DNA from: a virus
Virus record (IMG/VR): IMGVR_UViG_3300020129_000059
Location: 1-30,774 of that record
Reading direction: 5' to 3' (one strand)
Length of the DNA stretch: 30,774 bases
The notes beneath the pieces are model-generated. The model saw only the letters and a list, made by a program, of their open reading frames with translations. It ran no database searches and was not told the origin of the DNA. A program made the position numbers and the translations under genes. Positions 2,550-15,375 of the stretch are shown piece after piece; position 1 is the first letter of the stretch; each line of letters starts with the position of its first letter.

Positions 2550-3029
2550 TCAGTCTCCTGCGGCGTGTTGGTGCTGCGTCACAAAGGCCCAGACGTTTGG
2601 CGCGTATTGCCTCAGCAGGCTGACGGTGTGGCCGACCCAGTCGGTGATATCGGGCCGCGTTAGGCTGCCGTCTGGATTGCGCAGTGGGGCGAAGCGTTCG
2701 GCTTCACGGCGCTGCCAATAGGCCAGCCATCGGCGGTCTTGCGGGCTTAAGCTGGCTACGTTGTCGTTCAGCGCGACGTAGGTGGTTGTGGCTTGTGGCG
2801 GGCTGAACTCGCGCAGAGCGGCGACGAGTTCGCCGTAACCCGGCAGGTATTTGCACTCGGCTGCGACGTGTTCCAACGAGGCTCTGGTGAAGTATCGATC
2901 ATCGAACCGGTCGGCGATGAACTCGGCATAGCGGTCGACGAACTCGTTGGCGTCGGCGGATGAAAGCCTTGCGCTGGTCATTCTGCCGAGTTGGATCAGC
3001 CATGCCTCGACGCGCTGGATCTCAGCCAT
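2550..3029 (-). CDS. Phage replication-associated protein, possibly P-like
   Basis: A 159-residue hypothetical protein directly downstream of the O-like initiator, overlapping its stop by eight bases. The middle reads EFVDRYAEFIADRFDDRYFTR and then KYLPGYGELVAALREF. This pattern recalls the helical domain of lambda P-like helicase loaders and related proteins, in which a short segment ending in a 'Pxxxel' motif follows an aspartate-rich helix. The resemblance is weak. A Trp/Arg-rich helix (RRWLAYWQRREAERFAPLR) follows near residue 100. Position after a DNA-binding replication protein supports a partner such as a helicase loader. I cannot exclude an unrelated function. Confidence 0.55.
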   Translation of the reverse strand: MAEIQRVEAWLIQLGRMTSARLSSADANEFVDRYAEFIADRFDDRYFTRASLEHVAAECKYLPGYGELVAALREFSPPQATTTYVALNDNVASLSPQDRRWLAYWQRREAERFAPLRNPDGSLTRPDITDWVGHTVSLLRQYAPNVWAFVTQHQHAAGD

Positions 3030-3786
3030 TGGCCAGCCTCCTTGCGGCTAGGTCGACAACGTCTTCGGGGCTGCCTTCGATGGTTTCCCAGTGCTCTCGG
3101 CGTTGCCGCGCGCACTCGTCCCACCCCGCTGATCGGCTTCGGGGATTGGTTCCCGCGGCTCTGCCGTTGGCGCCATTGGCTCGCGGATTTTCCCCGGTTT
3201 CCCGTGGGTTAGTGCCGACTGCTCGCGGATTAGTCCCATCAGCGCGCCGCGCGGGCGGGGTCCCCGGCTCAGCCGGGGTGCCGGTCCCCACCACGTGGGG
3301 ACCTACGGGGGGTCTTTCTTCTTCTTCTGCTTCTAGATTCTTAGCATTGGGTTCCCCATTGGGGGCCCTACTGGGTTCCCCATTGGGTGACCCATTGGGT
3401 GACCCATTGGGTGACCCATTGGGTCTTTGCCCTTTCCACCGCTTCTCGGCCCACTGGCGGCCGCCGTCAGAAGCGACAGCATCCTTGACCATTCGGCGGC
3501 AATAGATCGTGCCGTCGTCGGTGCGGCTGAAGACCCTCGCCTTCTCCAGTGTGGCTAGGTGCTTGATGGCTTCGCGCTCGGTGCATCCGAAGATCATCGC
3601 CAGATCCTTCGGCCCTGGCCGCCCCCCGTTCACCAGGAGGCAGCCTACCTTGTCCGCCTCGTGCATGAGGCAGAGCATCCGCATCCAGAAACCCTGGGCG
3701 GCAAGATCGCAGAGCCGCAGCGCCGGCTCGCTCTGCCAGTCGCGCCAGAAGAACTTGGACCATGAGTGACCGTTGCAGTTGCTCAT
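3022..3786 (-). CDS. Phage O-like replication protein with repeat-rich C-terminus
   Basis: A 254-residue protein with an N-terminal winged-helix-like domain (residues 1-110; WSKFFWRDWQSEPALRLC, GFWMRMLCLMHEADKVGCL, then DLAMIFGCTEREAIKHLATL). This arrangement is common in replication initiators of alphaproteobacterial phages. Residues 120-145 are a run of PNGS/PNGE units encoded by 12-base direct repeats. A Glu-rich patch follows, then Thr-Asn-Pro-Arg repeats. The start at ATG 3786 has AGGAGG eight bases upstream and overlaps the DnaA-like gene (ATGA). By analogy with lambda O, the in-gene repeats plus the adjacent AT-richer stretch may be the replication origin. The initiator role is inferred from domain type, context and repeats; no biochemical motif proves it. 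Confidence 0.72.
   Translation of the reverse strand: MSNCNGHSWSKFFWRDWQSEPALRLCDLAAQGFWMRMLCLMHEADKVGCLLVNGGRPGPKDLAMIFGCTEREAIKHLATLEKARVFSRTDDGTIYCRRMVKDAVASDGGRQWAEKRWKGQRPNGSPNGSPNGSPNGEPSRAPNGEPNAKNLEAEEEERPPVGPHVVGTGTPAEPGTPPARRADGTNPRAVGTNPRETGENPRANGANGRAAGTNPRSRSAGWDECARQRREHWETIEGSPEDVVDLAARRLANG
3350..3425. repeat. 12-bp iteron-like tandem repeats, candidate replication origin
   Basis: Three full copies of CCCATTGGGTGA (3379-3390, 3391-3402, 3403-3414) are followed by a partial fourth (3415-3425). Degenerate CCCATTGGG copies lie at about 3355-3377. Each copy contains the near-palindrome CCCATTGGG. Immediately beside them, 3311-3350 is a pyrimidine-rich, AT-richer stretch (TTCTTCTTC and TAGATTCTTAG). 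The whole block lies inside the O-like gene, where it encodes the PNGS repeats and the Glu-rich patch. Iterons followed by an easily melted stretch inside the initiator gene is the lambda ori plan. The repeats are seen directly; the origin role is inference. Confidence 0.6.
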
Positions 3787-4262
3787 GCCGCGGCCTCCTG
3801 CGGCGTGAGTTCGTATCGCAACGTCACTGCCGCCCAGGCGAGCCCGGCATCGGAGCGCAGCAGCTCGTCGATCCGTCGGATGCCGTGGGCCACGGTGCTG
3901 TGGTCGCGCCCCAGCGCCCGGCTGATGTCGGCGATCGAGGCTAATGTGCAGTTCCGGCACAGCCAATAGACCAGCATGCGGGGGCGGGCGGCCGTCGGCC
4001 CCCTGCGGTGGGACACCAGGTCGATGGTCTCGATGCCGAAAGTGCGGGCGACGGCCGTCTGGACGGCGAAAATGGATGGGTAGGCCAAGGTCACAGCTCT
4101 CCTGTTGACGGCAGGAGGGCTGAAATGCGAGAACGGGTTTGCAACCTCCGTCTCGCAGTTCGGCTCCCCGCCGAATGCCAAAGTTACAGTGCCCCGTCGC
4201 GCTTCCAACGCGGCGGGGTTCTCGTTTGTAGCCGGGAATGTATTGAGTCGGGAAGCGCTCAC
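3783..4262 (-). CDS. DnaA domain IV-like DNA-binding protein
   Basis: A 159-residue protein whose C-terminal 100 residues match the DNA-binding domain of bacterial DnaA. A helix with AVARTFGIETIDLVSHRRG is followed by ARPRMLVYWLCRNCTLASI and the DnaA signature-like ALGRDHSTVAHGIRRI (residues 117-131). No ATPase domain is present, so it cannot be a full initiator. It could bind DnaA boxes on host or phage DNA, or act as an anti-initiator or transcription factor. The GTG start at 4262 is supported by GGAGGTGG just upstream and a GTGA overlap. A second GTG at 4094, preceded by AGGAG, would give a 103-residue domain-only form. It lies directly upstream of the O-like gene. Confidence 0.82.
   Translation of the reverse strand: MSASRLNTFPATNENPAALEARRGTVTLAFGGEPNCETEVANPFSHFSPPAVNRRAVTLAYPSIFAVQTAVARTFGIETIDLVSHRRGPTAARPRMLVYWLCRNCTLASIADISRALGRDHSTVAHGIRRIDELLRSDAGLAWAAVTLRYELTPQEAAA
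4192..4218. other. Strong hairpin inside the DnaA-like gene
   Basis: CCCCGTCGCG and CGCGGCGGGG form a 10-base-pair stem with one G-T pair around a seven-base loop. It lies in the poorly conserved N-terminal part of the DnaA-like gene, between the GTG start at 4262 and the internal GTG at 4094. No U-run follows on the minus strand, so it does not look like a terminator. It could influence which start is used. Confidence 0.4.
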
Positions 4263-6687: not shown

Positions 6688-6889
6688 GGTCCGCGCGGCG
6701 CGCGAGCGGTTGGGGATGACGCCGGCCCAGCTCGCGGCGGCGCTGGAATGCACGGTGCGCGCGGTGCAGCAATGGGAGACCGGCGCCCGCAATCCGCCTG
6801 GACCGGCCAGGGTGGCGATGCGCCTGCTCATGCCGCCACCTGTGCGTCGCCGTCTGCCGGCCGGAACACCGAGGCAATGTGGCGGCTGA
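6674..6889 (+). CDS. HTH (XRE/Cro-like) regulator on the opposite strand
   Basis: A 71-residue DNA-binding protein. Residues 1-50 form a compact helix-turn-helix: SPAEVRAARERLGMTPAQLA followed by LECTVRAVQQWETGARNPPG. The WETG turn is typical of XRE/Cro folds. The last 20 residues are basic and lack a visible domain. The gene starts inside the end of the 6487 gene and ends 62 bases inside the 3' end of the convergent methyltransferase gene. The palindromes at 6426-6470 are its probable operators. It may regulate only its own module, or the modification genes whose transcription it opposes. Confidence 0.78.
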   Translation: MSPAEVRAARERLGMTPAQLAAALECTVRAVQQWETGARNPPGPARVAMRLLMPPPVRRRLPAGTPRQCGG

Positions 6890-7553
6890 GCGGGAGAGGT
6901 ATCTTCGCGATCAAGGCGCTGGCCTGCTTACGCTTCGTAGAACCGCTGCTGTTCTGCCGCATCGGACTGCTGTTCCGACCAAACCAACCGTCTGAGCCTC
7001 CGCCGACCTTGACGCCTGGCGCTGCCTTGCGGCGCTCATCCAATGCCTTGTCCCACCAAAGCGCGCCGCTACCTCGCTGCTTGACCTCCTTGAAATCCCT
7101 GGACGTGATCGGCATTAGCGCCGGCACATCGCCCCACAGATAGTAGCTGCCGAAATTCCAGCGCGCTCGCCCGACCCACTTCTGCGCCCCTCGCACGTTC
7201 TCCACGATCAGCGGAATATGCCGCCCAGCCGCTTCACTAGCCTCACGTTGAATGCGGAAGCATGCCTCAAACAGCGTGTTGTCCGGTGGCGGCAGAGCCT
7301 TGGCCCGAGACCATGGCATGGCGCGATAGCTATAGCCCTGGCACGGAGGACTAGCGACGATCAGATCAGCATCGCGGAACTGCGAGCCATGCAGCGTCAG
7401 AACGTCCTGTATGACCAGCGTCGCTGGGAAGCGGTGCTTGCCGCACTCCTGCCGCTCGATGTCGAAGCCTATCACGTCGTAACCTTCGGCAAGAAGCCCA
7501 TCGGTCCACCCGCCGAGGCCACAGAATAGGTCGATGGCAAGGGGGCGCATCAT
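6828..7553 (-). CDS. DNA cytosine-C5 methyltransferase (Dcm-like)
   Basis: A 241-residue enzyme that transfers a methyl group from S-adenosylmethionine to cytosine C5 in DNA. Motif I is DLFCGLGGW (residues 8-16), motif IV is SPPCQGYS with catalytic Cys71, and motif VI is IVENVRG (117-122). The region after residue 135 is short and lacks an obvious QxRxR motif, so the target-recognition part is reduced compared with typical enzymes of more than 300 residues. Such compact Dcm-like enzymes are common in phages. ATG 7553 overlaps the TGA of the GcrA-like gene (ATGA). The stop is followed by an ATGA remnant where the next operon gene would be expected. The last 62 bases are overlapped by the convergent HTH gene. 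Confidence 0.88.
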   Translation of the reverse strand: MMRPLAIDLFCGLGGWTDGLLAEGYDVIGFDIERQECGKHRFPATLVIQDVLTLHGSQFRDADLIVASPPCQGYSYRAMPWSRAKALPPPDNTLFEACFRIQREASEAAGRHIPLIVENVRGAQKWVGRARWNFGSYYLWGDVPALMPITSRDFKEVKQRGSGALWWDKALDERRKAAPGVKVGGGSDGWFGRNSSPMRQNSSGSTKRKQASALIAKIPLPLSRHIASVFRPADGDAQVAA

Positions 7554-8083
7554 GCGGCCTCCGCAATCAGCGAGACGCGGCGCACGAACACCCGCCGGCG
7601 GTGCGCAGCGCACCACGAGCCGTGATCCACGGTGGGGCCGCCGCACATCGTCCAGGGAGCTGCCGTGTCGTCGGTCCACTGGCACGTCGTGACGCTGGAA
7701 AAAACCACCGACCGCACGTGTGGACTCAAGGGGGGCGCGGCCGGTGGCAGCTCCGGTGGCGGGGCAGCCGCCGGAGGGTCTGGGCGAACGATGCGGACCT
7801 GGGGCTCGGGCGATGGCGGCTCGCGCTGCGCCCTGGGAGCCGCCTGAACGGCGCGGGGCTTCGGTGCCCCCGGCAGTGGCGAGGGCCGCGGCAGCAGGCC
7901 CAGGCGTCGCGCACGGCCGATGGCGGCGGACTTGGTGCGCCCGATCCGCAGCCCGATCTGCGCGGTCGACATGCCGCCGTTCCACAGCAGCGTCAGCCGG
8001 GCGTCGTCGTCCGGATCCCAGACGCGGGACTCCCACTCGACGAGCGTGTCACCGCGCCAGATGTGGCAGTGCCAGGCGTCCAT
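7550..8083 (-). CDS. GcrA-family transcription regulator
   Basis: A 177-residue protein of the GcrA cell-cycle regulator family, which in alphaproteobacteria binds RNA polymerase sigma70 and methylated DNA to control cell-cycle genes. An N-terminal HTH (DPDDDARLTLLWNGGMST, then GLRIGRTKSAAIGRARRLGL, residues 24-62) matches the family's helix and K-x-A-x-G-x-x-x-R pattern. A Pro/Ala-rich linker of about 60 residues follows. The C-terminus (133-168) has CQWTDD, MCGGPT and SWCAAHRRRVF, which agree with the family's C-terminal Cys/His segment. An extra N-terminal stretch of about 20 residues is unusual. It lies between a DpdA-like gene and a C5 methyltransferase, so it may read or control DNA modified by these enzymes. 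Confidence 0.85.
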   Translation of the reverse strand: MDAWHCHIWRGDTLVEWESRVWDPDDDARLTLLWNGGMSTAQIGLRIGRTKSAAIGRARRLGLLPRPSPLPGAPKPRAVQAAPRAQREPPSPEPQVRIVRPDPPAAAPPPELPPAAPPLSPHVRSVVFSSVTTCQWTDDTAAPWTMCGGPTVDHGSWCAAHRRRVFVRRVSLIAEAA

Positions 8084-11661: not shown

Positions 11662-12018
11662 TCAGGCGGCCTCGATGCGGCTAAAGAGTTCGGTCAGTTC
11701 ATCGAACGCCGCTGCGAACTCGGCATTTTCCTCACTGGTCTCCTCGCACCGCGGCTCCGGTGGCTGCGACGGCTCGGGCATTGCCGTGAGCATGTCAGGA
11801 TGGAAAGAGAACCATTCCCTGCGGGGATCGAGCCGTTGATCCGCGAAGCGCCGATGGAACCACTTCTCGAGATATCTGCCGCCATCCACGACACGTATGA
11901 CGCAGAGAGCATCGTGGTTCGCAGTTTGAAGGGCGCTGAGACGCTCCTCCATCTGGCGCTCTGTCCAGCCGATCTTGACGGGGCCATGCGCCCCTTGGCG
12001 GACTATGTAGACGGTCAT
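11662..12018 (-). CDS. GIY-YIG-like nuclease-family protein (T5orf172/Mug113 type)
   Basis: A 118-residue protein with an N-terminal GIY-YIG-like core. TVYIVRQG and PVKIGWTE (residues 2-20) correspond to the GIY and YIG elements. RLSALQTANHDAL follows, then GGRYLEKWFHRRFADQRL with Glu51 and His55 in the catalytic positions, and REWFSF. This is the pattern of the T5orf172/Mug113 branch. A charged, acidic tail of about 40 residues follows. Such proteins occur in many phages, often with unclear function; DNA cleavage is plausible. It starts at ATG 12018, overlapping the stop of the Cro-like gene. Confidence 0.8.
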   Translation of the reverse strand: MTVYIVRQGAHGPVKIGWTERQMEERLSALQTANHDALCVIRVVDGGRYLEKWFHRRFADQRLDPRREWFSFHPDMLTAMPEPSQPPEPRCEETSEENAEFAAAFDELTELFSRIEAA

Positions 12019-12260
12019 CAGGCCGCCTCGCAGACGGCCATCGCATCGCCAACGGTCGATGGTTTGGTGCGCGCCAGAGCGGCAACCGTGAGCCCAGGAA
12101 CGCTGCCTTGAGCCAGGTCAACGATCAGATGCCAGTGCCGCGCCGGAATGCCGCGATGGAACCAGCTCTTGACGGACTCCCGATTCAGCCCAAGCGCATC
12201 GGCCACCACGGCGCGACCGCCGAGGGCTCGAAGAACTGTAGCGTGGTAGTTCTCGCACAT
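12018..12260 (-). CDS. Cro-like HTH protein, first gene of the leftward operon
   Basis: An 80-residue protein. VLRALGGRAVVADALGLNRE followed by SVKSWFHRGIPARHWHLIVD is the classic pattern of Cro-like 'carph-isopro' repressors: ALGG-x-x-x-VADALGL, then W-x-x-RGIPARHW. It is the first gene of the leftward operon, and the operators O1/O2 lie just upstream of it. It probably competes with the CI-like repressor, as in lambda. No good ribosome site precedes the ATG at 12260, so translation may be leaderless or weak. Confidence 0.8.
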   Translation of the reverse strand: MCENYHATVLRALGGRAVVADALGLNRESVKSWFHRGIPARHWHLIVDLAQGSVPGLTVAALARTKPSTVGDAMAVCEAA

Positions 12261-12272
12261 TCCTCACAGTCT

Positions 12273-12312
12273 GGGTGCAATTTGCGCGCAGAGCAAGAGC
12301 TAAATTGCGCCA
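12273..12312. promoter_or_regulatory. Left operator pair O1/O2
   Basis: O1 is GGGTGCAATTTGCGCGC (12273-12289). O2 (12296-12312) carries the same core on the other strand, AAATTGCGCC. Their starts are 23 bases apart. The complement of O4, downstream of the repressor gene, matches O1 at 16 of 17 positions. The pair lies between the divergent Cro-like and CI-like genes, so it can control both. I could not place a convincing -10/-35 pair here. Confidence 0.68.
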
Positions 12313-12347
12313 TACCCCCGGAGACAAAATGCCCCCATACTCGCCGG

Positions 12348-12755
12348 GTGTCTAAAAAAGCCAGACCCATCTCCACGCGCGCCATAACCGAGCAGGTCGG
12401 AGAGCGTATTCAGTGGGCGCGCGAGTTGATCGAGCCCAATCGCTCCGCTTTTGCGCGGATCGCCGGCATTGACCGTGGGCTGCTGCGCGCCATCGAAACC
12501 GGCCGGCGCGTGCCGTCAATTTTTGCCGTTATCTCCCTGGCCCATCGGATGCGCGTCAGCACTGACTACATTCTGACGGGGTCAATGCGAGGTGTAGATG
12601 GTGAACTGGCGCTAAAGCTAATAGAGCTGCATCCCGAGCTCGCAGCTTCTTCCAGCCAAGCAGCCGGGCGGTCCGCAGACACCCCTGGCACGGGCGGCGG
12701 ACCGAGCATACCGACCCTGCCCAGGAGACCGTCCCAGTCTCCGCTTCGAGCCTGA
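12348..12755 (+). CDS. CI-like phage repressor (XRE family)
   Basis: A 135-residue regulator with an N-terminal HTH: ITEQVGERIQWARELIEPNR, then FARIAGIDRGLLRAIETGRR and VPSIFAVISLAHRMRVSTDY. The ETGRR-VPSI turn and the Tyr-Ile-Leu-Thr-Gly end match XRE repressors. The last 70 residues are low-complexity Ser/Pro-rich, and no peptidase domain is visible, so RecA-driven self-cleavage is unlikely. GTG 12348 is the best start; there is no clear ribosome site, and a leaderless transcript is possible. It is flanked by operator pairs on both sides and probably maintains lysogeny. Confidence 0.75.
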   Translation: MSKKARPISTRAITEQVGERIQWARELIEPNRSAFARIAGIDRGLLRAIETGRRVPSIFAVISLAHRMRVSTDYILTGSMRGVDGELALKLIELHPELAASSSQAAGRSADTPGTGGGPSIPTLPRRPSQSPLRA

Positions 12756-12812
12756 TCTTCCGCGCGTTTTTCATGACGACATAGCCACAAGAAATCCGCC
12801 AAGGCCCGGCGT

Positions 12813-12856
12813 GGGTGCAATTTGTACTTGACGTGGGCGCAAATTGCACCCAGGAT
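12813..12856 (+). promoter_or_regulatory. Right operator pair O3/O4 with candidate promoter
   Basis: O3 is GGGTGCAATTTGTACTT (12813-12829) and O4 is GGGCGCAAATTGCACCC (12835-12851), an imperfect 17-base palindrome. Their starts are 22 bases apart. A good -35, TTGACG (12828-12833), is followed after 17 bases by a poor -10, CAGGAT (12851-12856). O4 fills the spacer, so repressor binding would block the promoter. This promoter would start the rightward operon at 12888. Confidence 0.65.
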
Positions 12857-12887
12857 GTGATCCATCGATACAGATGGATTGCCTCCA

Positions 12888-13193
12888 ATGAATGCCTTCT
12901 CGCGGCAAGGTTTGGTTCTCCGCTACGGCGTTTCGTCCCATTCCGGCGGACCCGTAATCGAAATTCTACCCAACGGTAATCTTCCCGTCACGCTAGAAGA
13001 ACACCCCGCACCGAAACAACCTGACAGTTACGCGCGTAACCGCATTCGTTTTCACATCGCATGCGAGGAATGCAGCGGAACGGGCCGATATTCCATCGAC
13101 GGCGGCAACAATCCATACGCACGCATCTACGAATGCGAGGCCTGTGAGGGCGCCGGCATGCGCGAAGCTCAGGACGAGGAGCTAGAGGCATGA
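12888..13193 (+). CDS. Small protein with DnaJ-like zinc motifs
   Basis: A 101-residue protein, first in the rightward operon, with ATG at 12888 (a TTG at 12879 is an alternative). The C-terminal half has two CxxCxGxG motifs: CEECSGTG (about residues 60-67) and CEACEGAG near the end. This is the DnaJ-type zinc ribbon. The N-terminal half has no recognisable domain. Such proteins are common in early phage operons and may help protein-protein or nucleic-acid contacts. Its transcription is probably controlled by O3/O4. Confidence 0.75.
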   Translation: MNAFSRQGLVLRYGVSSHSGGPVIEILPNGNLPVTLEEHPAPKQPDSYARNRIRFHIACEECSGTGRYSIDGGNNPYARIYECEACEGAGMREAQDEELEA

Positions 13194-13354
13194 GCCCCGA
13201 GAACCGCGCCCGCGTCGACGCGCTGTGCCGCGAGATATCGGCACTCGGCAGCGCCCTTGGTGCAATGCACCAGGAACTGCTGCTGCTCCGCGACGAAATG
13301 CGCGGATCGCTGAACGCAGACGAACCCACACCAGAACTCAAGGAGGCAGCGTGA
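13190..13354 (+). CDS. Short helical protein, 54 residues
   Basis: A 54-residue frame starting at ATG 13190, which overlaps the preceding TGA, and ending in TGATG with the next gene. It begins SPENRARVDALCREISALGS; the middle is a Leu-rich helix (HQELLLLRDEMRGSL). It may form a coiled coil. No function can be assigned. Overlaps on both sides support that it is translated. Confidence 0.6.
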   Translation: MSPENRARVDALCREISALGSALGAMHQELLLLRDEMRGSLNADEPTPELKEAA

Positions 13355-13518
13355 TGCTCATCCGCGTATCTGAGGACTACGACGCTCCGACTGACTGCCA
13401 TTGGTATGCGTATGACGACGACCGCTACGACGGTGCGCCGGACGGTCATACCACGATGGGCACCGGCCCGACGCGGCTCGAAGCAATCGCTGACCTGCTG
13501 GAGAAGCTCGATGACTGA
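13354..13518 (+). CDS. Small acidic protein, 54 residues
   Basis: ATG 13354 has AAGGAGG about nine bases upstream. The protein reads LIRVSEDYDAPTDCHWYAYD, followed by DGHTTMGTGPTRLEAIADLL. It is acidic, with a central Tyr/Asp-rich segment and a C-terminal helix. The pattern 'TGxTxxEAIxDL' resembles small proteins with a double-stranded-RNA-binding-like or HicB-like fold, but the match is slight. It overlaps the next gene by eight bases. Confidence 0.6.
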   Translation: MLIRVSEDYDAPTDCHWYAYDDDRYDGAPDGHTTMGTGPTRLEAIADLLEKLDD

Positions 13519-13759
13519 CATCCGCCTGATATGCGCAGAGCGCCGCGTCGAGGACCTCCTCACCGTCCTCGCTGCCGCAGTGAGAGGCGACCCGCACTGG
13601 CGGCGCGACGCGAAGCGGCTGCTGGCCGACATCGACAAGACCACATACCCCGAGCCGCTGACCGAGGCTGAGCGCGAACGGCTCCGCGAGATCGACGCGC
13701 ACAAGCGCGCCGCGGAGATCACCGCCGACATCATGGAGGATGCTGAACGTGCCGCATGA
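13511..13759 (+). CDS. Small helical protein of unknown function
   Basis: An 82-residue protein starting at ATG 13511 inside the end of the previous gene. The first part reads IRLICAERRVEDLLTVLAAA, followed by a highly charged helical region (PLTEAERERLREIDAHKRAA). No motif is recognised. Gene order and overlaps place it in the early operon before the recombination cassette. Confidence 0.6.
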   Translation: MTDIRLICAERRVEDLLTVLAAAVRGDPHWRRDAKRLLADIDKTTYPEPLTEAERERLREIDAHKRAAEITADIMEDAERAA

Positions 13760-13988
13760 AATTCTAGCCTCTATCCGCGTCCATCTGCCCGATGGGCACT
13801 CGGAGATGGCCGGCGCGCTTGCGGATATCGCGCAGGCTTGGTCCAACTTCCTCGGCGAGTTCCAGCAGTATGAGGCCTCCAGCGAGGTCACGTTCGCCGT
13901 CAACGAAACGCGCACCAAACCCGGCCCGAAGCGCAAACCGCGCACCACGCCATCCCTCGACGATGTGCCCGCTGCGGAGGCCGCGTGA
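13749..13988 (+). CDS. Small unknown protein, basic tail
   Basis: A 79-residue protein if started at GTG 13749, for which GGAGG lies nine bases upstream. ATG 13740 is in frame but directly abuts that GGAGG, so it is less likely. The first half is helical (LADIAQAWSNFLGEFQQYEA), and the end is basic and Pro/Thr-rich (TKPGPKRKPRTTPS). The basic tail may bind nucleic acid. It ends in a TGATG overlap with the Gp157-like gene. Confidence 0.58.
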   Translation: MPHEILASIRVHLPDGHSEMAGALADIAQAWSNFLGEFQQYEASSEVTFAVNETRTKPGPKRKPRTTPSLDDVPAAEAA

Positions 13989-14464
13989 TGGCTGACGTGA
14001 CCGTATCGCCTCGGCGCCTCGAGGCGGCCATGGCTGAGGCCATGAAGCTGCGCGAGTTGGTCGGCGACGAAGACGCGCAGTTGCTCGCCGACACCATCGA
14101 GGGGGAGACCGACGTCTTCTCCCTCATCGACCGCCTCGCCGAGCGGGCGCTTGCCGACAAGCTGCTGGTGGAGCGCGGCAAGGAGCGCCTCAAACGTATC
14201 GAGGCACGTGAGGATCGCGCCCGCGCCATCGTGCAGAAGATGATGGAGGCGCTGGGTGTGGCCAAGCTCGATCGCAGCCTCGCCACGCTATCGGTCAGCG
14301 CTGGGCCGAAGTCCGCGCACGTCACCGACTCCCAAGCCATTCCCGATGTCTATTGGCGACGCGCGATTGATAAGACCGAGCTGCTGCGCGCGCTGAAGGC
14401 TGGACCGGTGAGCGGTGCGGAACTGAGCAACGGCGCCCCTGTGTTGAGGATCCTATCCCGATGA
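13988..14464 (+). CDS. Siphovirus Gp157-like protein
   Basis: A 158-residue protein related to the Gp157 family, which occurs beside phage recombinases. The family pattern is visible as LLADTIEGETDVFSLIDRLA (about residues 36-55), then a charged coiled-coil region with KERLKRIEAREDRARAIVQK, and KLDRSLATLSVSAGP. Known members are linked to phage resistance or recombination; the exact activity is unclear. ATG 13988 overlaps the previous stop. It ends four bases inside the RecT-like gene. The cassette order Gp157, RecT, nuclease supports the assignment. Confidence 0.8.
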   Translation: MADVTVSPRRLEAAMAEAMKLRELVGDEDAQLLADTIEGETDVFSLIDRLAERALADKLLVERGKERLKRIEAREDRARAIVQKMMEALGVAKLDRSLATLSVSAGPKSAHVTDSQAIPDVYWRRAIDKTELLRALKAGPVSGAELSNGAPVLRILSR

Positions 14465-15375
14465 ATGAACTCGTTCCCGTAGCCGCCGGCGGCTTGGTGC
14501 CCAAGAGCATGGATGAGGCGCTGCGCCTCGCCGAGTTCATGGCCAAGGCCCGCACCGTGCCGAAGCACCTGCAGGACAGCCCAGGCGACTGCCTGATGGT
14601 GGTCGAGCTGGCTATGCGTTGGGGCATGTCTCCCTTCGCCGTAGCCCAGGGCACCAGCGTGATATCCGGCAAGCTGATGCTGGAGGGGAAGATGGTCGCC
14701 GCAGCGGTCGAGACCAGCGGCGCCATCGTTGGGCACATAGACTATTCGTATGCCGGTGAGGGCGAGGCCAGGGCGATCACGGTCAGCGCCACGCGCCGCG
14801 GAGAGACCGCCGCCCGGACCGTCACAGTGACGCTGAAGGAGGCGCGCACCAACAACGAGATGTGGAAGCGCCAGCCGGATCAGCAGCTGGCCTATCACGG
14901 CGTCAGGGTATGGGCGCGCCGTTGGACGCCATCGGTCATCCTTGGCGTCTACTCGCGGGAGGAGATGGGGCCGATCATCGAGGGGCAGAGCGAGGAAGTG
15001 CCCGACGAGAGGGATGCGCTGAACGACGCGATCCCCATGACGAAGCAGGTCCCGCTGAACAAGGCGGCCGCGGCTGCCACGCCCCGCGCCCCCAGGGTTG
15101 CGGAGAAGACCGAGGCGCCCCAGCGCACCGAGGAGGCCTGGCGCGTCTGGGTCGACAAGCTGCGCCAGGCGTGCGCCGTGCTCTACTCGCGGCAAGAGGT
15201 CGTGGAGATTGGCGAGCGGGCCTCGGTGACCGACGCGATCGCCACCGGCCCCGGCTGGGTCCGCGCCGAGGTCAGCAAGATCCTGGCCGAGAACTACGCC
15301 CGCTTCCCAGACGAGCCGGAGGCCGAGGAGCCGACCGAGGTCGAGATCGTCGGCGAGGAGAAGCTGGCGGGCTAG
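14461..15375 (+). CDS. recT: RecT-family single-strand annealing protein
   Basis: A 304-residue recombinase that anneals complementary single strands during phage recombination. The motif order fits RecT: EALRLAEFMAKARTVPKHLQ, GDCLMVVELAMRWGMSPFAV and GTSVISGKLMLEGKMVAAAV. A later segment reads DQQLAYHGVRVWARRWTPSV. The C-terminal 130 residues (Ala/Glu-rich linker, then a helical part) are more variable. It overlaps the Gp157-like gene by four bases (ATGA), and an endonuclease follows. No separate RecE-type exonuclease is visible in this cassette. Length is close to typical RecT proteins (270-330 residues). Confidence 0.88.
   Translation: MNELVPVAAGGLVPKSMDEALRLAEFMAKARTVPKHLQDSPGDCLMVVELAMRWGMSPFAVAQGTSVISGKLMLEGKMVAAAVETSGAIVGHIDYSYAGEGEARAITVSATRRGETAARTVTVTLKEARTNNEMWKRQPDQQLAYHGVRVWARRWTPSVILGVYSREEMGPIIEGQSEEVPDERDALNDAIPMTKQVPLNKAAAAATPRAPRVAEKTEAPQRTEEAWRVWVDKLRQACAVLYSRQEVVEIGERASVTDAIATGPGWVRAEVSKILAENYARFPDEPEAEEPTEVEIVGEEKLAG

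Follow-up and report, generated by a model that had tools for sequence, protein, structure and literature searches.

Probable operators of a lambda-type lysis/lysogeny switch flank the gene of a short helix-turn-helix repressor in a metagenomic phage

The GC-rich palindromes on either side of a short repressor gene in the virus DNA analyzed here are very likely the operators of a lambda-type lysis/lysogeny switch, which would make the region the immunity region of a temperate phage. The DNA, referred to below as the window, is the whole 30,774-nt stretch formed by positions 1 to 30,774 of IMG/VR record IMGVR_UViG_3300020129_000059. Sequence comparison strongly supports the sites being phage operators that flank the repressor gene, one of them inside an early promoter, because their positions are kept while their letters change in about nine other lineages.

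Five 17-bp sites, all given here on the plus strand, were located in the window. O1 (12273 to 12289; GGGTGCAATTTGCGCGC) has the arms GGGTGC and GCGCGC around AATTT, and O4 (12835 to 12851; GGGCGCAAATTGCACCC) is a near-perfect palindrome with the arms GGGCGC and GCACCC around AAATT. O2 (12296 to 12312; AGAGCT and GCGCCA around AAATT) is weak with a single good half, and O3 (12813 to 12829; GGGTGC and GTACTT around AATTT) joins one good half to a poor one; both are half-sites. In O5 (12320 to 12336; GGAGAC and GCCCCC around AAAAT), the left arm departs from the O1/O4 consensus. An initial annotation had described O1 to O4 as two pairs, and on re-checking the window we found its coordinates to be correct, as were the 16 of 17 positions at which O1 matches the complement of O4 and the claimed spacing of 22 to 23 bases (centers are 23 bp apart for O1 and O2 and 22 bp apart for O3 and O4). 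The description as pairs held only in part: there are operators on both sides of the repressor, but O5 had been missed, so that the 87-bp intergenic region between the repressor gene and a cro-like gene contains a triad (O1, O2, and O5, centered at 12281, 12304, and 12328, with spacings of 23 and 24), and some relatives have only one downstream site. Inspection by eye near 12798 revealed no third site accompanying O3 and O4.

Across the 30.8-kb window, no site other than O1, O3, and O4 matches GGGYGCAAWTTG with one mismatch or none. The five strand-hits at this level all fall inside the two clusters, against 0.68 expected, and a count of five was reached by 1 of 100 shuffles. Allowing as many as three mismatches gives 65 matches versus 84.6 expected, no more than chance would yield, so the random scatter that the initial annotation had named as an objection is not seen. 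The best 17-mer common to the upstream and downstream regions is identical at 17 of 17 positions, compared with a mean of 11.8 and a maximum of 15 among shuffles (0 of 500). O2 differs from the 12-mer at two positions, no better than background (the window contains about ten matches of this quality); what makes it credible is solely that relatives share its position and its good half-site.

O1 and O4 both lie within candidate early promoters. The PL-like promoter (12828 to 12856, plus strand) consists of TTGACG (12828 to 12833) and CAGGAT (12851 to 12856), and O4 occupies its 17-bp spacer, as had been annotated. Unmentioned in that annotation, O1 likewise occupies the 17-bp spacer of a PR-like promoter of the cro-like gene (12258 to 12296, minus strand), between TTGCTC (12296 to 12291) and CAGACT (12273 to 12268), the latter 7 nt from the ATG. 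The two whole promoters are near copies of one another, forming a 34-nt inverted repeat (12264 to 12297 against 12827 to 12860) in which 28 positions match. Upstream of the repressor, a PRM-like −10 box, CATACT (12336 to 12341), is followed after 6 nt by the GTG start codon at 12348 (12336 to 12347 together, plus strand), and the repressor's own promoter has no recognizable −35. A strict sigma-70 scan of the region found no promoter, which is explained by the poor −10 boxes. Both divergent transcripts look leaderless from their geometry. On the cro side, the ATG is 34 to 36 nt from the −35 in 10 of 10 lineages, leaving no space for a leader; on the other side, the CATACT-N6-GTG arrangement, which recurs in lineage L009 and as TATACC-N6-ATG in L032, suggests the same for the repressor.

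Repressor relatives in IMG/VR are 31 to 69% identical, and nine lineages (L006 to L010, L015, L019, L021, and L025) were compared with the window, with L032, L033, and L034 fetched later. A cro-like gene adjoins the repressor gene on the opposite strand in the nine other lineages. In all ten lineages a palindrome is present in each of two promoters, that of the cro-like gene and the one beyond the 3′ end of the repressor gene, and the three lineages fetched later fit this pattern, with the two genes again adjacent. The letters differ: GGGGGC-N5-GCTCCC and GGGAGC-N5-GCCCCC in L009, GATGGC-N5-GCCATC in L006, L007, L019, and L021, AGGGGC-N5-GCCCCT in L008, CGGGGC-N5-GCCCCA in L015, and a GGGAC type in L025. 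In promoter alignments of the cro side, all ten have a TTG(A/C)C −35 with an operator directly behind it in the spacer, with the exception that L008 has a half-site alone in the spacer and its full site overlapping the −35. Downstream of the repressor, the −35 is TTGAC or TTTACA and the operator either occupies the spacer or overlaps the −10, again in 10 of 10.

Ungapped 17-mer identity across the two regions flanking the repressor proved too blunt a measure for palindromes with free centers and was not significant for L015 and L025. It was replaced by a score combining arm symmetry with arm identity between the two regions, set against 400 dinucleotide shuffles per locus. This joint score was above all 400 shuffles at every locus, L032, L033, and L034 included. 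At native control positions in the window, 8 of 1155 equally spaced positions equal its palindrome score, a modest result attributable to the one imperfect arm of O1, and the case is therefore carried by the comparative evidence from the relatives.

The finer layout is conserved to different degrees. The center of O1 is at the identical position in L009 and L032 with different letters, the offset and good half of O2 are shared with L009 (GCACCA) and L032 (GCCCCG), and L006, L007, and L033 have a counterpart of O2 lying 23 to 24 bp from O1. The O5 position is −20 in L009 and L032 and −21 in L015, and an operator abuts a −10-like box (CATACT, TATACC, CATATA, TATAGT, TATCCT, and similar) in the window and in L009, L032, L015, L008, L034, and L025; in the GATGGC clade, no further operator was found beside a −10-like box upstream of the repressor start. 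The 22-bp spacing of O3 and O4 is found also in L009 (site GGGGGC-ATTTT-GCGCTT), and across lineages the spacing is 22, 32, or 44 bp or the second site is absent, four lineages having a single downstream site. The relatives are all metagenomic contigs, with neither an isolate nor a host genome among them; a repressor search of bacterial genomes and a comparison of the window DNA with phage records each gave no match.

Two further loci were observed among the relatives. Near an end of its contig, L012 encodes a repressor copy of 100 aa (2950 to 3303) that shares 68% identity with the window protein. This locus has neither an adjacent cro-like gene nor O1 and O2 and retains the O5/PRM-like block alone; it may represent either a truncated form or a remnant serving immunity only. 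In L033 (3348 to 3548), L019, and L021, the promoter region beyond the repressor gene has almost the same sequence, whereas the cro-like gene of L033 is strongly unlike those of the other two, which points to recombination inside the immunity module.

The repressor gene (12348 to 12755, plus strand) encodes a 135-aa protein in which an HTH_3 domain is followed by a pair of short conserved helices and then a disordered tail. Its match to PF01381 (HTH_3), 26.3 bits with a cut-off of 23, places it in the Cro/C1-type HTH family. The structure model has HTH helices at residues 8 to 77 and the two short helices at 85 to 105, and by structure comparison its fold resembles the HTH of P22 c2 and 434 Cro. 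The P22 c2 and phage 434 repressors, whose N-terminal domains have the same HTH fold, are the best named phage-repressor matches by structure and by sequence (a weak E of 0.012), but their C-terminal oligomerization/cleavage domain is absent from the window repressor. The only tblastn matches among annotated phages were to short HTH repressors such as Listeria A500 gp33, which are distant at ~32% identity with the similarity limited to the HTH, and a literature search for short repressors without a peptidase domain returned nothing useful. Peptidase_S24 matched 0 of 10 members of the repressor family, which match HTH families alone. Judged by its domains, the protein is not a member of the lambda CI/LexA-like (S24) family, although it would work like CI; the initial label "CI-like" thus suits the layout and the P22 c2-type HTH fold and fails for domain content. 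With no S24 or C-terminal domain, self-cleavage driven by RecA and the tetramer and octamer contacts of lambda CI would be unavailable by the known route.

We infer the following mechanism. Bound as a dimer, the short HTH repressor would recognize operators of 17 bp built around a GC-N5-GC core. On O1 and O4 it would sit between −35 and −10, silencing the leftward cro-like operon and the rightward recombination operon. By analogy with lambda, repressor bound at O2, centered 44 bp upstream of the likely transcription start of its gene, would touch RNA polymerase and activate transcription, and O5, which overlaps the repressor's promoter, would mediate negative autoregulation. The Cro-like protein, whose gene lies on the opposite strand, would compete with the repressor for these operators and favor lysis. 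An extension of this scheme, in which repressor at O1/O2/O5 and at O3/O4 loops the ~540 to 560 bp of intervening DNA to tighten repression, seems unlikely. Operators do flank the gene in 10 of 10 lineages, like OL and OR in lambda, and the initial annotation had called looping possible, which it is, but the repressor has no lambda-type C-terminal domain or known oligomerization domain, the O1 to O4 center distances of 498 to 573 bp (47.4 to 54.6 turns) are neither constant nor in phase, and some relatives have one downstream site only.

The 80-aa product of the cro-like gene (12018 to 12260, minus strand), the first gene of the leftward early operon, is a putative lytic regulator with a YdaS/P22-Cro-type HTH. 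Its best Pfam scores, YdaS_toxin (4.4e-6, 26.9 bits; cut-off 30) and P22_Cro (0.0056, 16.9 bits; cut-off 30.2), are below threshold, suggesting a protein related to the YdaS/P22 Cro family under the curated cut-offs, and it matches phrog_8008 DNA binding protein (7.6e-8). We consider it improbable that this protein is the main or sole occupant of the sites, with the HTH_3 protein using other DNA or protein contacts. Its gene is always adjacent and varies along with the operator, and O1 overlaps its own promoter, but at the loci sharing GATGGC-N5-GCCATC it is the HTH_3 recognition helix that is almost identical (DRTTLQKIEDG in L006, L007, L019, and L021 and DRTTLHKIEDG in L033), whereas the Cro-like helices differ (IPRNSITRW, LDRGSVTRW, and ISPKRVVKW), and O5 is located at the repressor's own promoter. 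The remaining lineages differ in the recognition helix as well as in the operator. That the repeats are merely duplicated early-promoter elements read by polymerase or a host factor is very improbable, for although the 34-nt inverted repeat spans the whole promoter and a GcrA-like transcription factor gene is nearby, O3, O2, and O5 lie mostly outside the two duplicated promoters, and a host factor would not produce palindromes whose letters vary with the repressor at fixed positions.

Reading the sites as operators of a lambda-type switch finds a close parallel in lambda itself. In the annotation of lambda (NC_001416), OR3, OR2, and OR1 are centered at −19, −42, and −66 relative to the cI start, with intervals of 23 and 24 bp; the corresponding values for O5, O2, and O1 in the window, L009, and L032 are −20, −44, and −67 relative to the repressor start, with intervals of 24 and 23 bp. 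The OL/cI/OR/cro topology has its counterpart in a RecT operon, an OL-like cluster, the repressor, an OR-like cluster, and the cro-like gene: divergent repressor and cro genes with an operator cluster between them, and a second cluster in the promoter beyond the repressor. Operators are 17 bp in both, one lies within each early promoter, an OR1-like site (O1) is in the cro promoter and an OR3-like site (O5) over the repressor promoter, the OR2-like O2 being weak here, O4 corresponds to OL1 with O3 as the second OL-side site, and the geometry of the repressor transcript is leaderless. The matching spacing and gene layout argue strongly that these sites function as lambda operators do. Unlike lambda, the window has an HTH-only repressor of 135 aa with no S24 domain, its OL side and those of its relatives have two sites or one, ~0.5 kb rather than 2.3 kb and no rex genes separate the clusters, the cro transcript looks leaderless as well, and the operators are GC-rich with other letters. 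The operators of Rhizobium phage 16-3, ACAA...TTGT, are unlike those of the window. We treat this temperate alphaproteobacterial phage as a lead; its control region (immC) holds both PL and PR, and one C repressor acts on both (PMC3694467).

The early genes also correspond to the lambda pL and pR operons, with Gp157/Gam-like and RecT genes on the OL side and the cro-like gene and a DnaA_C-domain gene on the OR-side strand. The O3/O4-side operon (12885 to 15375, plus strand) comprises a CxxCxGxG zinc-finger ORF (12885), a Gp157/Gam-like gene (13985), and a RecT annealing protein gene (14461). The zinc-finger motif of this first ORF (12885 to 13193) is related to DnaJ/antiterminator-Q-like families, similar ORFs occupy the corresponding position in L006, L007, L019, and L021, and the product might play the part of lambda N. 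Lying 3′ of the cro-like gene is a T5orf172/MUG113 GIY-YIG-like ORF (11662 to 12018, minus strand), and an ORF of similar sequence likewise follows the cro-like gene in L006 (424 to 1014); the former may belong to the switch operon. On the same strand, the ORF at 3783 to 4262 has a Bac_DnaA_C origin-binding domain (1.6e-17) with no DnaA ATPase part and is possibly a phage replication initiator. A gene for a GcrA-like cell-cycle regulator (PF07750, 3e-13; 7550 to 8083, minus strand) adjoins a C-5 cytosine methyltransferase-like ORF (6828 to 8036) and points to an alphaproteobacterial host, and the phage is probably one of an alphaproteobacterium.

The system is a clear and well-conserved variant of the classic lambda switch rather than a new kind, so far from metagenomic phages only. 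It raises the puzzle that lambda operator spacing is retained although the domain that makes lambda dimers cooperate is missing. We tentatively suggest, as a possibility short of even chances, that a repressor family with no C-terminal oligomerization/cleavage domain keeps the OR triad geometry and both leaderless divergent transcripts while achieving cooperativity, PRM activation, and induction by a non-CI route, for example the conserved GVDGEL/HPEL helices and an antirepressor. About ten diverged lineages, each with its own operator alphabet at fixed positions, offer a natural comparison set from which the recognition code of a small HTH repressor, and with it phage immunity groups, could be worked out.
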